DNA of 50,096 bases from Myxococcales bacterium (GTDB taxonomy: Bacteria > Myxococcota > UBA727 > VGSZ01). The notes under the pieces are model-generated. The model had not been told where the DNA came from. It ran no database searches and was given only the letters and a program-made list of their open reading frames with translations. Positions 33,441-50,096 of this stretch are shown piece by piece; the stretch's first letter is position 1; every line of letters begins with the position of its first letter. The stretch covers positions 1-50,096 of the forward strand of contig JAHFED010000048.1 in the NCBI GenBank assembly GCA_023248635.1. Reading direction: 5' to 3'. The position numbers and the translations under genes were made by a program.

Positions 33441-33524
33441 CCAGGCAATTCATCGCCTGGCGGCGATGAATTCTGCTCGTCAGGCCGGGTGGCCCCTACA
33501 GTGCTCTCAGGCCGGGCGGCGGTC
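33441..33524. repeat. Family B palindromic repeats
   Basis: Contains AATTCATCGCC-TGGC-GGCGATGAATT (33447-33472), the same palindrome as at 49174-49198 and 49264-49290, plus two copies of TCAGGCCGGG[T/C]GGC (33480-33494, 33507-33521) related to the GGCCGCTCGGCCTGA module there. It lies between the ABC exporter and the DUF2341 lipoprotein. Confidence 0.8.
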
Positions 33525-42887: not shown

Positions 42888-43733
42888 TCAGTTCATCCCA
42901 AGACGGCCGAGGTGCATCGCGTGATAGGCGCGCACCTTCTCCATCGGCACCGCGGGATCGACGCCGTGGCGGGCCATGTTGTCGGCGTTCTCCTCGAAGA
43001 TGGCCATCATCTCGTTCGAGAGCTCGCCGACGACGTCTTCGACGTAGGCGCGCTTGTTGGGTTGGTTTTCGAGGAGCCCCCGCAGGCGCATCAACCCGAA
43101 GCCCACATGCCGTCTCTCGTCGAGCAGCACGGTCTTCAGCATCTGGGAGGTACCCGGGTCGATGTCTTCGAGCAGGGCCGCGTTGAACTCGAAGAAACCC
43201 AGGGCGAGGCCTTCGAGGGCCAGGTTTTGGCCGATGACGCCGCCGACGAAATCGCGGCTGTCGACGACGCGGGCCCGCATGTGAGCGTGGAAGGCGAACA
43301 TGCGGGGGTTCACGTATTTGTGCAGGGTGCGGTCGACGTCTTCGCAGCCGAGGCTCTTGAGTCGGTGGGTGAAGACCTCGACATGCCGGGCCTCGTCGAT
43401 CACCTGCGTGGCGAGGAACATGCGCGCATTGTCGTCGGGCGCGAAGGCGCACAGCGCGGCGGAGCACTCGAAGGCGACGCGCTCTCCGGCGAGTCCGCCG
43501 GCCACGGCGCCGACGATGGCGTGGTAGGTGGCCGAGGGCAGGGCCCGCAGCTGCGCCTGCGTGAGCGGTGCCGTGGAATATCCGAAGGTGGTGCCGTCGA
43601 GGTAGGTGCTGCTGCGCTCGCGCCAGTACTGCACCTCGTAGAGCTTGTGGGGGCGCAGCTCCGCCGTCGTCGGCGCATAGGCCAGCGCGTCGTGGGGAAC
43701 ATCAGACAGAGGCCGGCGGGGTTCGAGGGTCAT
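42888..43733 (-). CDS. Ferritin-like diiron protein (R2-like)
   Basis: 281-residue helical protein with the six ligands of a carboxylate-bridged diiron centre: a Glu near 84-89 (GERVAFE), E114-x-x-H117 (DEARH), Glu174 (ALEGLALG) and E206-x-x-H209 (DERRH). Spacing is close to ribonucleotide reductase R2 and R2-like ligand-binding oxidases, but it lacks R2 radical-pathway features that I can identify. The ATG overlaps the TetR gene stop as ATGA, so it is likely controlled by that repressor. Its reaction is unknown; it may be an oxygenase or oxidase acting on a small hydrophobic substrate. Confidence 0.85.
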   Translation of the reverse strand: MTLEPRRPLSDVPHDALAYAPTTAELRPHKLYEVQYWRERSSTYLDGTTFGYSTAPLTQAQLRALPSATYHAIVGAVAGGLAGERVAFECSAALCAFAPDDNARMFLATQVIDEARHVEVFTHRLKSLGCEDVDRTLHKYVNPRMFAFHAHMRARVVDSRDFVGGVIGQNLALEGLALGFFEFNAALLEDIDPGTSQMLKTVLLDERRHVGFGLMRLRGLLENQPNKRAYVEDVVGELSNEMMAIFEENADNMARHGVDPAVPMEKVRAYHAMHLGRLGMN

Positions 43734-44470
43734 CGACGCTCCGGGGCGCTGAGGGAGGAAACGAAAGCGGTGGCGACGTCGCCCAAAGCCTGGCCCAGGG
43801 CTGCTCGGTCGAAAGGCCGCGGCGACGACGCGGCGATGCGCCATTGCAAGAGGCCGCCTTCGACGATGGCCAAGAGCGACGCGCCGTGCGCGCGCAGGGC
43901 GTCGTCGTCGAGGCTGCCCAGCTCAGGTCGCTGCAAGAGCAGCGCACGTCGGCATTGCAGCCGCGCGCCCTCTTGGACCTGAAAGACGACATCGCCGATG
44001 TCCTTGCGCGAGGGAGCCTGGCCCCAGAAGTCCAACCAAACGCCGAGCAAGCGGACGGCTTCGTCGGTGTCACCAGAGAAATGCCATCGCACCAAGGCGT
44101 CGACGGCGTGAACCTTTGGCGAGGCCCCGCGATCTCCGCTTCGCCCCGCTTGGCGATCGAGGAAGGCGGCGAGTCGCACGAGGTAACGGTCGCCGAGGCG
44201 TCGCATGAGCTCGGCGACGAGCTCGTCTTTGCTCTCGAAGTAGTAGTGCAGCGCGCCCCGAGAAATGCCGGCCGCTTCGACGATCTCGCTCACCGAAGCC
44301 CCCGGCCCTCCTGATGACGACATCACTGCAAAGAGGGCGTCGAGGATGCGCGCGCGGCGCTGAAGGCGACCTTCCTTTTTGGAGCGCGACAGGGGCGCGT
44401 CGACGGGGGCGTCGCTGGCCTCGAGGGCCATGGGCGGGGTGAAACGCTGCTGGGCAGAGAGCTGGTGCAA
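43730..44470 (-). CDS. TetR family transcriptional regulator
   Basis: 246-residue repressor with an N-terminal helix-turn-helix (ASVSEIVEAAGISRGALHYYFESKDEL) and a ligand-binding helical domain. I took TTG at 44470 as start because GGAGG lies four bases upstream; an ATG at 44431 would drop 13 residues and lacks such a site. Upstream are two overlapping perfect palindromes (44478-44505), the likely operator. It is cotranscribed with the diiron protein by an ATGA overlap, so ligand binding probably relieves repression of both genes. Confidence 0.92.
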   Translation of the reverse strand: MHQLSAQQRFTPPMALEASDAPVDAPLSRSKKEGRLQRRARILDALFAVMSSSGGPGASVSEIVEAAGISRGALHYYFESKDELVAELMRRLGDRYLVRLAAFLDRQAGRSGDRGASPKVHAVDALVRWHFSGDTDEAVRLLGVWLDFWGQAPSRKDIGDVVFQVQEGARLQCRRALLLQRPELGSLDDDALRAHGASLLAIVEGGLLQWRIAASSPRPFDRAALGQALGDVATAFVSSLSAPERR

Positions 44471-45418: not shown

Positions 45419-47461
45419 ATGAACCACCACCGCCGCACCTGGACGTCCGTCGTCGTCGTCGTCGCCGCGCTGGGGGCCCGCGACGCGGCAGCGTTTCGCT
45501 TCTTGTGCAATGGCATCGACGCCGACGGCAGCACCGACAGCGACAACTGCGGCGCCTGCTCCGCCGCCACCGCGTCGCGTTGGGAAGAGTTTCAGGCCGA
45601 CTTCCGCTTCGACGACAACGTGCGGCCTCCCGAGGTGACCCTCGCGGAATGGCAGGCGAACCAGACCGCGACCATCGCGAATTGGAACAACGTACAGGGC
45701 CACGGCCTCACGCTCCGCGACGTCGGCGCCGCCCAGTTCCGCTCCTTCGGCGACGACAACGGCGAAAACTCGATCTTCTGGATCACCAACAGCCAGGAAT
45801 TCAGCCGCGAAGTCGGCGGCGGCGCCGGCTCCATCTTGGGTGTCACGCTCACGCTGCGCGGCGGCTGCAACGGCGGGGGGCGTCGCGGGGCCATCTTCGA
45901 CGCCGACCTCGTCATGAACGGCACGGACTTCGACGGGCAGGGCGGCTTCGATTGGGACGAGAACAGCGTCGTGTCGACCATGGTGCACGAGATGGGTCAC
46001 GCCATCGGCTTTGGTCATCCGTGTGCGGACTGCTCCGACTTCGCCGTGATGTCGGCCACCAGCGGCTTCAACGAGAGCGACACGCCTTTGCTCGACGACG
46101 AAGACGCCATCCGGGCGCTTTACCCCGGCACCCCGGGCGGTCTCGGCACGGCCTGCACCAGCGACGGCAACTGCGACGACAACACCTGCGTCACCGCCAA
46201 CATCAGCGGCACCGATCGCTCCTTCTGCTCCCACAGCTGCACCAACGACGCCTCCTGCGAAAACGGCATGATCTGCGGCGACCTGGCCGGTGAGGGTCGC
46301 GTCTGCGTCTTCAGCAACGCCGGCATCGCTGACGTCGGCGAGAGCTGTGGGCCCCCCGGCTGCGTCGACGAATGCGATGGCTTCAACATCACCGCTGGTT
46401 GCAACGTGTGCCTCGGTGATTGTTTCGCCGGCTGCGTCGCATCCTCGGGTGCTGGCTGTGGGGCCAACGAGACGTGCACCCGCTTCAGCTGCGACCAGGA
46501 CAACCAATGCAGCAGCGGCGAGTGCAGCAACGGCCAATGCAACGACGCCTTCGGCGTGTGCCTGGCCGGTGGGACGGCGCTGCGCGGCGACTCCTGCGGC
46601 GCCGACGCCTTCTGCACCAACGACGTCACCTGTGTCACCGACGGCGCTGGCAACAACGGTTTCTGCCGCGGCTTGTGCAACGCCGCCGGGCAGGGTTGCT
46701 TGCAGAGCGAGAACTGCCTCTTTCTCTTTGGCAACTCCACCGAGGGCGCGTGCTTCCCCGTCGGCATCAAGACCGAGGGCCAGGCCTGCACCGACGTCGG
46801 CGAATGCGCGCATGGGTTGCTGTGCACCGGTACGTGTGAGCAGCGCTGCGATCGTGGCTTTCAGTGTGTCGACGACGCCCAGACCTGCGGCGCATCGGGC
46901 TTCACCAGCAGCGGGATGAACACCTGCCAGGGCGCTGAAGGCGAAGGCGAGGGCGAAGGCGAAGCCAACGAAGGCGAAGGGGAAGAAGGCGAAGGCGAAG
47001 GCAACGAAGGCGAAGGCGACCAGGACTGCGATCCGCGACGCGGCAACTTCGACTGCCCGTCTGGCAAGTCGTGCGACGACGGCGACTGCGTGCAGGGCGA
47101 AGGCCCCAAGAAGAACTTCGAGCTCTGCGGCGGCGACGGGGAGTGCGCCGGCGGCTTGTGCGTCAACGGCGTTTGCTCCCGGCCCTGCGACGTCGTCGAC
47201 GACGCTTGCCCAGGGTCCTACCGCTGCGACGACGAGGCCATCCCGGGCGGGCTGTGCATCCCAGATTCGTGCTTTGAAAATGAGGCGTTGTGCGAGGCCC
47301 CCGAGTTCAGCTGCGCCTACTCGAGCGCGCAGCGCTACGTCTGTGCGAAGGGTGTGGCGGCTCCCTTGTGCGGCTGCACGCAGTCGCAATCCGAAGACGC
47401 CCCCATTGCTGGGCTGGCGGCGGCGGGCCTGCTGGGTCTGCTGCTGCGTCGTCGTCGCTGA
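45419..47461 (+). CDS. Matrixin-type metalloprotease with MYXO-CTERM-like tail
   Basis: 680-residue exported zinc protease. Signal peptide about 1-25. The catalytic motif is HEMGHAIGFGH (190-200), with the Met-turn at Met211 (VMSAT). From about 240 there are Cys-rich modules like those of myxobacterial surface proteins (CTSDGNCDDNTC, CDQDNQCSSGEC, CGGDGECAGGLC), then a Gly-Glu linker (about 506-534), further Cys-rich modules, and a C-terminal Gly-Cys, hydrophobic helix and RRRR tail. The tail fits MYXO-CTERM sorting, in which the protein is lipid-anchored at the surface after cleavage at the Cys. No propeptide switch Cys was identified with certainty. Confidence 0.93.
   Translation: MNHHRRTWTSVVVVVAALGARDAAAFRFLCNGIDADGSTDSDNCGACSAATASRWEEFQADFRFDDNVRPPEVTLAEWQANQTATIANWNNVQGHGLTLRDVGAAQFRSFGDDNGENSIFWITNSQEFSREVGGGAGSILGVTLTLRGGCNGGGRRGAIFDADLVMNGTDFDGQGGFDWDENSVVSTMVHEMGHAIGFGHPCADCSDFAVMSATSGFNESDTPLLDDEDAIRALYPGTPGGLGTACTSDGNCDDNTCVTANISGTDRSFCSHSCTNDASCENGMICGDLAGEGRVCVFSNAGIADVGESCGPPGCVDECDGFNITAGCNVCLGDCFAGCVASSGAGCGANETCTRFSCDQDNQCSSGECSNGQCNDAFGVCLAGGTALRGDSCGADAFCTNDVTCVTDGAGNNGFCRGLCNAAGQGCLQSENCLFLFGNSTEGACFPVGIKTEGQACTDVGECAHGLLCTGTCEQRCDRGFQCVDDAQTCGASGFTSSGMNTCQGAEGEGEGEGEANEGEGEEGEGEGNEGEGDQDCDPRRGNFDCPSGKSCDDGDCVQGEGPKKNFELCGGDGECAGGLCVNGVCSRPCDVVDDACPGSYRCDDEAIPGGLCIPDSCFENEALCEAPEFSCAYSSAQRYVCAKGVAAPLCGCTQSQSEDAPIAGLAAAGLLGLLLRRRR
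46933..47019 (+). repeat. Gly-Glu repeat tract in the metalloprotease
   Basis: Imperfect GGCGAA units encoding the Glu-Gly linker, with Asn and Ala interruptions. It separates two Cys-rich regions and parallels the tract in the DUF2341 lipoprotein. Confidence 0.85.
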
Positions 47462-47479: not shown

Positions 47480-48469
47480 TCAGCGCAAGCGGGGCTTGAG
47501 CGTGGGGCGGATCTTCGCCGCCGGCTTGCCCTCGAGGGTCACCGATCCCGACCAGGGCAGGTGCCCGGGACAATGGATGCGCACCGCATGGCGCGCGCTG
47601 CGATCGAGGCCCGTGACCCGGACGACGCCGTGGCCGCGGTCGACGCCGTTGACGACGACATTGGCTTCGGTCGGGGCCTCGACGACGAGGATGCCGTCGC
47701 CGGCGTCGGCCACGACGTCGTCGTCGTCGGGGGCTTGGGTGGCGTCGTCGAGGGCTTGCACGACCGTGGTCGGTCGCCGGATCCGGGCTTCGGGCAACGG
47801 CTGGGTCTTTTGCAGGCTCTTGACGGCGGTGACCAATTTCTTGGCGTCGATGGAGTCCGGCGGCGAAGTGGTCTCGTCGACGTCGTCGGCGCCGATGGCG
47901 GGGGGCTCGCTGCTGGTCGAGATCACTTGAATGCGCGTGATGCGGGGGATCGATCCGCTGCCGTGCGATCCCGTGGCGCTCTCGTCTGCCAATCGTCGCT
48001 GCGGCAGCGGCCGCGGGGCACGCGGAAGGTTCTCGATGTCGACCATGGGCTCGGTGTTGTCGCGCACCGTTCGCGCGGCCTCGGCGGGAGGGGTGGGTGG
48101 CGTGCTGGTCGGCGCACCCGCGGGCCCAGCACCCAGGGGCACCGCTCGTCCGTGGGCGCGGAGTGCAGGCTCACCCGAAGGCGACGACGTCGACGTGCGG
48201 GGCGGGATGGTCGGCGGCGCCGACGTGGGGCCGGACTTACCGCGGGGCCGCATCGAGAGAAACTCGGTGGCGTCTTCGTCGGATTCGTCATCGACGAGGG
48301 GGGTGGCTCGGGCGGTGTTGGCGGGAGGCTTTTTGGCGCCCCCAGCTGTTTGCGTCGCTCCGGCCGCTTGTACGGCGGCGATCACTTTGCCGGCGGCCGT
48401 CGAGGACCGGAGGTCGATCGCCGTCGCCTCCTCTTCTTCGGAGTCGTCGTCTCGTCGCCGTGAAGCCAT
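47480..48469 (-). CDS. PEGA domain protein with a long disordered N-terminus
   Basis: 329-residue protein. The first 255 residues are Pro/Thr/Ser/Asp-rich and look disordered (acidic start SRRRDDDSEEEEATAIDL). The C-terminal domain, about 260-329, is a PEGA-type beta domain: VEAPTEANVVVNGVDRGHG, VRVTGLDRSARHAVRI, HCPGHLPWSGSVTLEG. PEGA domains occur in surface proteins and in kinase-linked proteins. There is no signal peptide, so it is probably cytoplasmic or the C-terminal end of a scaffold. Its ATG overlaps the ATG of the divergent NTAQ1-like gene at CCATGG. No clear ribosome binding site is seen; TATACG twelve bases upstream might be a -10 for a near-leaderless message. Confidence 0.8.
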   Translation of the reverse strand: MASRRRDDDSEEEEATAIDLRSSTAAGKVIAAVQAAGATQTAGGAKKPPANTARATPLVDDESDEDATEFLSMRPRGKSGPTSAPPTIPPRTSTSSPSGEPALRAHGRAVPLGAGPAGAPTSTPPTPPAEAARTVRDNTEPMVDIENLPRAPRPLPQRRLADESATGSHGSGSIPRITRIQVISTSSEPPAIGADDVDETTSPPDSIDAKKLVTAVKSLQKTQPLPEARIRRPTTVVQALDDATQAPDDDDVVADAGDGILVVEAPTEANVVVNGVDRGHGVVRVTGLDRSARHAVRIHCPGHLPWSGSVTLEGKPAAKIRPTLKPRLR

Positions 48470-49112
48470 GGCGTCGTATAGACTGATCACCCACGCGCAT
48501 GCACCTAGAGCCGAATTCTTGACCAACTTGCACAGCAAGCCAGGCGGCGGGGACTGGAGCGCCGTCGACGTTGACGCGCTGCCCTACGCACCCTTTTTTT
48601 GTGAGGAGAACGTGTGGCGCCAGGCCCACAGCGTCCTGCTGCCGGTCGCAGCGGCACTGCGCCACGTCGTGTTCGTCACCAACCGCGCGCGCGCCGTTGC
48701 CATGTGGAACCAACGCGCCGCCGTCGTTGACCCCGTGCTCTGGGACTACCACGTGGTGCTCTTGGCCGAGGGCGTCGTCGTCGATGTCGACTGCCGGGCA
48801 GGTGCTCTCTTGTCGCTGCCGGGCTGGGCCGCCGCTTCCTTTCGCGATGGGGTGCCCACTGAGGCCCGGCCGCGCTTTCGCGTGGTCGCCGCCGCCGAAT
48901 TCTTGGAGCGTTTTTCGTCGGACCGCTCGCACATGCGCGACGCCCGAGGTGTGAGCAGCAAGCCCGAGCCGCCTTGGGATCCTCCCTGGCAACCCGCGCG
49001 GGGCATGAACTTGATGCGCTTCGTCGACCTCGACGACGACGTCGCTGGCTTTGTCTGTGACCTGCCGGGGCTCTTGGCCTTTGGCGCTGGAGAAAGAGCG
49101 GGCGCCAGGTGA
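48468..49112 (+). CDS. Protein N-terminal glutamine amidohydrolase (NTAQ1 family)
   Basis: 214-residue protein that follows the NTAQ1 (Nt-Gln amidase) pattern along its length: FFCEENVWR (Cys45 nucleophile), VVFVTN.....AMW, DPVLWDYHVVLL (His95), VVDVDCR (Asp106/108), then FRVVAAAEFLERFSSDRSHMRDARG and MNLMRFVDLDD. The human enzyme converts N-terminal Gln to Glu in the Arg/N-degron pathway, and its Cys/His/Asp triad is at the same places. A bacterial Leu/N-degron pathway would not obviously need this step, so the role is open. The ATG at 48468 shares bases with the divergent PEGA gene start. The ribosome binding site is weak. Confidence 0.88.
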   Translation: MASYRLITHAHAPRAEFLTNLHSKPGGGDWSAVDVDALPYAPFFCEENVWRQAHSVLLPVAAALRHVVFVTNRARAVAMWNQRAAVVDPVLWDYHVVLLAEGVVVDVDCRAGALLSLPGWAAASFRDGVPTEARPRFRVVAAAEFLERFSSDRSHMRDARGVSSKPEPPWDPPWQPARGMNLMRFVDLDDDVAGFVCDLPGLLAFGAGERAGAR

Positions 49113-49438
49113 GGGGACAGTCCGACGACGGAGAGCAGCATCGGAGCAATTGGCCGCTCGGCCTGAGGGCAGAGAATTCATCGCCGCCAGGCGATGAACC
49201 TGTAGACAATTGGCCGCTCGGCCTGAGGGCAGAGCATTCACCGGCACGCGAAGCGCTGTCGGTGAATTCATCGCCGCCAGGCGATGAACCTGTAGACAAT
49301 TCACCGACACGCGAAGCGCTGTCGGTGAATTTCGTCGTCGTCACGCCGAGTCGTGATGAATGACGAGACGCCGCGTACGTGGGTGAGCACCGCAGACGAC
49401 GACGCTGCAGCCGCGATCGGACATCAAGGGGATGTGGA
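49113..49438. other. Repeat-rich intergenic region, no gene seen
   Basis: 326 bases between the NTAQ1-like and NUDIX genes. Most of it (49147-49331) is family B repeats. The remainder has no open frame of note. Confidence 0.7.
49147..49331. repeat. Family B modular palindromes
   Basis: Six modules, each opening with AATT or a near match: a (GGCCGCTCGGCCTGAGGGCAGAG), b (TTCATCGCC-GCCA-GGCGATGAA, then CCTGTAGAC), a, c (TTCACCGACACGCGAAGCGC, then TGTCGGTGAATT; first copy diverged), b, c. Modules b and c are perfect inverted repeats with hairpin-forming arms of nine and twelve bases. Confidence 0.92.
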
Positions 49439-49985: not shown

Positions 49986-50096
49986 CAGCCTGGCGGCGAT
50001 GAATTCACCGACAGCGCTTCGCGTGTCGGTGAATTGTCTACAGGTTCATCGCCTGGCGGCGACGAATTCACCGACACGAAGCGCTGTCGGCGAATT
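49986..50096. repeat. Family B modular palindromes at the right edge
   Basis: Runs in the opposite orientation to the 49147-49331 block: part of b, then c, then a reversed GTCTACAGG-b block, then c with a two-base deletion in its loop. The array runs to the last base of the window and probably continues. Confidence 0.9.

Follow-up and report, generated by a model that had tools for sequence, protein, structure and literature searches.

A gene for a probable NTAQ1-like N-terminal glutamine amidase in a Myxococcota genome and its possible place in a bacterial N-degron pathway

Eukaryotic NTAQ1, or Nt(Q)-amidase (PF09764; human C8orf32, PDB 4W79), belongs to the Gln branch of the Arg/N-degron pathway (NTAQ1 - ATE1 - UBR), wherein conversion of Gln to Glu is followed by tRNA-dependent aminoacyl transfer and an N-recognin. 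The crystal structure paper gives the catalytic triad of the human enzyme as C28/H81/D97 and shows, in 4W79, that the N-terminus of a substrate runs alongside residues 76-79 and is contacted by W78, D79 and Y80; Y111 contacts D97 (PMC4214742). Bacteria have a Leu/N-degron pathway comprising Aat, Bpt, ClpS and ClpAP, in which Aat attaches Leu or Phe to Lys, Arg or Met, N-terminal Asp and Glu receive Leu through Bpt, and ClpS delivers such proteins to ClpAP (PMC4052509, PMC12493166). Description of this pathway gives primary and secondary destabilizing residues only (PMC4052509), and its residue range is narrower than in eukaryotes (PMC4745127). N-terminal deamidation is treated as a eukaryotic addition, with NTAQ1, NTAN1 and yeast Nta1 thought to have been independently recruited (PMC7022378). 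In our literature search, whose coverage of subscription papers was poor, we found no paper describing a bacterial NTAQ1 and none presenting N-terminal Gln as a bacterial destabilizing residue, which fits a first-pass annotation of the present DNA that called bacterial examples little studied.

Within the window (the whole 50,096-nucleotide stretch of DNA analysed), the open reading frame at 48468-49112 on the plus strand starts with ATG and translates to 214 amino acids followed by a stop codon. The first-pass annotation had proposed that it encodes a bacterial NTAQ1 homologue, and this is borne out by homology, fold and catalytic residues. The Pfam Nt_Gln_amidase profile (PF09764), suggested there as a check, gave a strong match (E 1.5e-32; 113.1 bits against a cut-off of 27) that covers residues 40-198 and profile positions 1-176 of 184, and it is the sole Pfam family of the protein. 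By phmmer, human NTAQ1 entries (3c9q, 4w79) are the nearest solved structures (E 2e-21, residues 35 to 193 aligned), with 52 of 157 aligned residues identical, and the alignment confirms that CEENVW, WDYHV, VVDVD, SDRSHM and MNL occur in the same order in both proteins. On these similarities, chance is excluded as the source of the family match. No NCBIfam model matches the protein, so naming based on that resource would miss it. Structure prediction from the single sequence gave a pLDDT of 32.4; an alignment of 60 sequences was used instead, and the resulting AlphaFold (AF2) model has a mean pLDDT of 88.9 and a pTM of 0.85. It adopts the NTAQ1 alpha-beta-alpha fold, and all 17 of its Foldseek matches to the PDB with E < 0.001, the only confident ones, are human NTAQ1 entries, with TM 0.71-0.75 relative to query length and, for the majority, an rmsd near 2 A.

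To compare the active sites, the window protein was aligned with 59 bacterial homologues (60 bacterial sequences in all) and human NTAQ1. The human triad C28/H81/D97 falls on C45/H95/D106 of the window protein, identical in 60/60 bacterial sequences. This agrees with the earlier placement of Cys45 and His95 and of a Cys/His/Asp triad within the motifs, and refines the triad Asp to the first Asp of DVD. Cys45 lies in the CEEN motif (residues 45-48; 48600-48611, plus strand; invariant in 60/60), His95 in WDYHV (residues 92-96; 48741-48755, plus) and Asp106 in DVD (residues 106-108; 48783-48791, plus), where D108, the counterpart of human D99, is likewise invariant in all 60. The substrate-contacting residues W78/D79/Y80 of the human enzyme correspond to W92/D93/Y94, again identical in 60/60. 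SDRSHM (residues 151-156; 48918-48935, plus) has R153, H155 and M156 invariant and D152 nearly so. At the position of human Y111, half of the bacterial proteins, including that of the window, have Trp and the other half Tyr. Judged by its sequence, the window protein is an ordinary new member of a known family; by enzyme class it is very probably an N-terminal glutamine amidase, the activity predicted from its family. It shares with eukaryotic NTAQ1 the fold, the C/H/D triad, the WDYH substrate strand, SDRSHM and MNL, and differs in having a bacterial host, no downstream ATE1/UBR ubiquitin machinery and, in the window's genus, an N-terminal extension of ~40 residues ahead of the Pfam domain.

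The G+C content of the domain by codon position (0.73/0.50/0.80) and the changes between a pair of congener NTAQ1 genes (57/45/82 at positions 1/2/3, the third changing most) agree with a real coding frame. Two antisense open reading frames on the minus strand (48288-49310 and 48676-49344) were set aside as frame shadows because the plus frame carries the family match. The ATG at 48468 and the start codon of a divergently oriented neighbour (47480-48469, minus) overlap by 2 bp, one CATG serving both start codons with no intergenic promoter space. In the congeners (L009 and L010) an NTAQ1 ATG occupies the equivalent place and the upstream plus-frame sequence is alike; in light of these two ATGs, a start at 48468 is plausible.

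The divergent gene encodes a low-complexity protein of 329 amino acids with a weak PEGA-domain C-terminus (19.2 bits, just below cut-off), and we do not assign it to the N-degron pathway proposed below. Downstream of the NTAQ1 gene, Pfam identifies a NUDIX hydrolase gene. Mosaics of palindromic modules (49147-49331 and 49998-50096) flank this NUDIX gene, with three modules joined at AATT (AATTCACCGACACGCGAAGCGCTGTCGGTGAATT; TTCATCGCCGCCAGGCGATGAA; AATTGGCCGCTCGGCC...); as inverted repeats, the arms 49257-49331 and 50002-50076 match at 99%, one module occurs again at 33449-33470, and the repeats are far above chance. None of the divergent gene, the NUDIX gene and the repeats bears on NTAQ1 function. 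Further away, 45419-47461 (plus) encodes a secreted-looking protein of 680 amino acids for which Pfam gave no match at E 0.001. It carries the metalloprotease motif HEMGHAIGFGH and a linker rich in GEGEGE, and its C-terminal GLAAAGLLGLLLRRRR tail resembles a myxobacterial sorting signal. A TetR-family regulator is encoded at 43730-44470 (minus).

The 6.53-Mb source genome carries a single NTAQ1 gene, and encodes Bpt, Aat and ClpS at separate loci (Bpt G000:C62, Aat C122, ClpS C9). Its Bpt has both domains (ATE_N 56.3 bits, ATE_C 130.3 bits) and matches the NCBIfam arginyltransferase model NF002346 (197 bits, cut-off 170), matches that speak to presence alone, the transferred amino acid and substrates being predicted. 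The N-recognin ClpS scored 110.6 bits, one of two ClpS matches in the genome. A scan of a handful of ORFs around clpS showed neither ClpA nor ClpP. An accompanying N-terminal Asn branch was rejected: NTAN1 (N_Asn_amidohyd, PF14736) had no match in the source genome and none over cut-off in 174 Myxococcota genomes. In 14 control genomes, E. coli among them, the Nt_Gln_amidase family had no match and only Caulobacter matched Bpt.

Since Bpt acts on N-terminal Glu, the product of an N-terminal glutamine amidase is exactly a Bpt substrate. In our main reading, a cytosolic enzyme of the NTAQ1 family would grip the N-terminus of a protein along the WDY strand, and Cys45, aided by His95 and Asp106, would attack the side-chain amide of a first-residue Gln, releasing ammonia and leaving N-terminal Glu. 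Bpt would then take this Glu as its substrate and add Leu from Leu-tRNA, and the Leu-tagged protein would be bound by ClpS and degraded by ClpAP. We put the probability that the bacterium has such a ‘tertiary’ N-degron step, running from Gln through Glu and Leu-Glu to ClpS/ClpAP, at about 0.55. Homology, fold, intact active-site residues, a genome that also encodes Bpt, Aat and ClpS, and the association with Bpt described below are directly supported, and the coupling of the amidase to Bpt and ClpS is what we infer from the pathway. The proposed order is that of the eukaryotic Gln branch, whereas the transferase here would be Bpt (with Leu expected, not Arg), the recogniser ClpS and the protease ClpAP, with no NTAN1; compared to the bacterial Leu/N-degron pathway, of which the source genome has Bpt, Aat and ClpS, the amidase step would be an addition. 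Among the substrates suggested by the first-pass annotation, N-terminal Gln of cellular proteins is favoured by the lack of an obvious signal peptide, the lack of a mobile or toxin context and the presence of Bpt, Aat and ClpS; toxin-like targets are without support, and imported peptides are a live rival.

Co-occurrence data argue for the link to Bpt. NTAQ1 is sparse, occurring in 8/244 Planctomycetota and 11/174 Myxococcota genomes. For Planctomycetota, Bpt was present in 8/8 genomes with NTAQ1 and 48/236 others (Fisher p=5e-6), or in 6/6 with NTAQ1 once two genomes reached via NTAQ1 hits were removed (p=1e-4), although genome kinship makes these values, and those that follow, too small; in the Bpt tree the NTAQ1-bearing genomes are spread over some four branches, and if each of these counts a single time, with a base rate of 23%, the value becomes roughly 0.003. 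For Myxococcota, Bpt accompanied NTAQ1 in 7/9 genera (26/73 others; p=0.02) and 5/7 families (5/24 others; p=0.02), with a weak association by genome (9/11 against 93/163; p=0.09). Among 50 diverse genomes with NTAQ1, 34 had Bpt, 49 ClpS and 49 Aat; ClpS and Aat are also common in Myxococcota regardless of NTAQ1 (156/174 and 148/174, respectively). Genome size varies strongly within the order of the source genome, from only 0.3-1.8 Mb in G008-G015 to 6.5 Mb in the source genome, and profile searches of G008, G010 and G012 found neither ClpS nor Aat. G003 (=G207) has four ClpS-like matches; two are diverged (63-69 bits) and one falls under the cut-off.

The same data leave some room for an amidase that acts outside degradation, in catabolism of Gln-starting peptides or in preventing the pyroglutamate cyclisation that blocks aminopeptidases. 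No partner enzyme would then be needed, in keeping with the missing Bpt match in 16 of the 50 diverse NTAQ1-bearing genomes and 2 of the 11 Myxococcota ones, and with the absence of linkage between NTAQ1 and N-degron genes. When the ORFs within 5 kb of 80 homologues were clustered, no conserved operon with bpt, aat or clpS was found, and an operon logic was rejected, as only generic kinase-like families emerged as common partners; at one locus (L096) aat lies 3 kb from NTAQ1, a proximity most likely due to chance. However, peptidases and transporters did not recur in this clustering either, and a role outside degradation predicts neither the Bpt association in two phyla nor the near-universal ClpS and Aat among NTAQ1 holders. 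On balance we consider this account unlikely, though it is the one we take most seriously after the N-degron reading. In favour of the N-degron reading, the aat, bpt and clpS genes of NTAQ1-bearing Chromatiaceae are clustered within about 6 kb.

Some of the genomes that lack Bpt may be explained if the N-degron role holds and a second, diverged Aat-type transferase handles N-terminal Glu there, which would leave the source genome, with its Bpt, unaffected. Two full-length Aat genes were present in 5/16 Bpt-less NTAQ1-bearing genomes compared to 1/34 with Bpt (p=0.01), and in the Aat tree four second copies and one single copy (that of G222) form a clade (support 96/87), with the copy of G210 outside. 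The diverged transferases of Bpt-less genomes (L134, L136, L138, L139, L142 and L153, from G189, G210, G214, G221, G223 and G222, respectively) mostly have the motifs FPWTGE-HPIPW and DCQQ. Against this proposal, the genomes are few and possibly related, substrate specificity is unreadable from the Aat sequences here, and ten Bpt-less genomes carry a single Aat while another lacks Aat; we give it a small chance. These last Bpt-less genomes, which a second Aat does not explain, keep the role outside degradation alive. Among the matches listed for 174 Myxococcota, only G049 has two full-length Aat copies, and no Bpt is among its listed matches; G049 also has a weak NTAN1 match (L132, G049:C8:88317-88535; 21 bits, below cut-off).

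A further alternative is that the fold has been repurposed for internal Gln deamidation, for free glutamine or as an effector- or toxin-like enzyme. After NTAQ1, the next PDB match of the AF2 model was protein glutaminase, at only E 0.4 (Foldseek). Bacterial protein glutaminase of the Chryseobacterium type is not known to be specific for the N-terminus. The alternative draws on the distantly related fold that this enzyme and several bacterial effectors have in common, the glutaminase also sharing a Cys/His/Asp triad (PMC4214742). Nevertheless, W92, D93 and Y94, predicted to bind the free N-terminus of the substrate, are invariant, the protein has no obvious signal peptide, and no NTAQ1 match was found in the plasmids, phages and viral contigs searched, on which ground a mobile, phage or toxin origin of the gene was also rejected. 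Repurposing thus appears very improbable.

A scan of bacterial genomes, one per GTDB species, gave 177 NTAQ1-encoding stretches. The best 80 of these include sequences from Planctomycetota, many Myxococcota (Polyangium, Minicystis, Plesiocystis, Enhygromyxa), Chromatiaceae (Lamprocystis, Thiohalocapsa), other Gammaproteobacteria, Obscuribacterales, Acidobacteriota, one Lentisphaeria and one Spirochaeta. NTAQ1 is best known from eukaryotes, but eukaryotic contamination or a spurious reading frame is refuted by intact-frame orthologues in both congeners and further Myxococcota, by bacterial neighbour genes, and by a protein that nests with those of Planctomycetota and Myxococcota. In the NTAQ1 tree, the window protein and two congeneric Myxococcota proteins form a group with six proteins from Planctomycetota (SH-aLRT 98), a placement suggestive of transfer between the two phyla. 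The Bpt of the source genome groups with its own order and not with the Planctomycetota that are sisters in the NTAQ1 tree, so co-transfer of NTAQ1 and Bpt was rejected; the Bpt of these Myxococcota did not come from those Planctomycetota, so Bpt was apparently in place in the lineage before the amidase arrived. The comparison of eukaryotic and bacterial members proposed in the first-pass annotation was run with one eukaryotic sequence, human NTAQ1, which fell among bacterial branches without strong support; this leaves the direction of transfer between bacteria and eukaryotes undecided, and a eukaryotic origin of the bacterial gene is not shown by the tree.

Beyond the source genome, we tentatively suggest, at somewhat less than even odds, that scattered bacteria of several phyla run a three-step N-degron cascade, with NTAQ1 acting first, Bpt or a diverged Aat second and ClpS/ClpAP last, that they acquired it more than once, partly by lateral transfer, where a transferase pre-existed, and that eukaryotic NTAQ1 may have been acquired from, or be shared with, bacteria. 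E. coli suits a direct test of the pathway, because neither the amidase nor Bpt had a match in the E. coli control genome. What merits attention in these results is that the amidase is probably wired to Bpt and ClpS; if so, this would make a new version of the N-degron pathway. In such a bacterium N-terminal Gln would rank as a tertiary destabilizing residue, the status it has in animals and plants, but the components acting after it would be bacterial. A bacterial amidase working with Bpt and ClpS in one cell would show three-tier logic in bacteria and would bear on the origin of eukaryotic NTAQ1.
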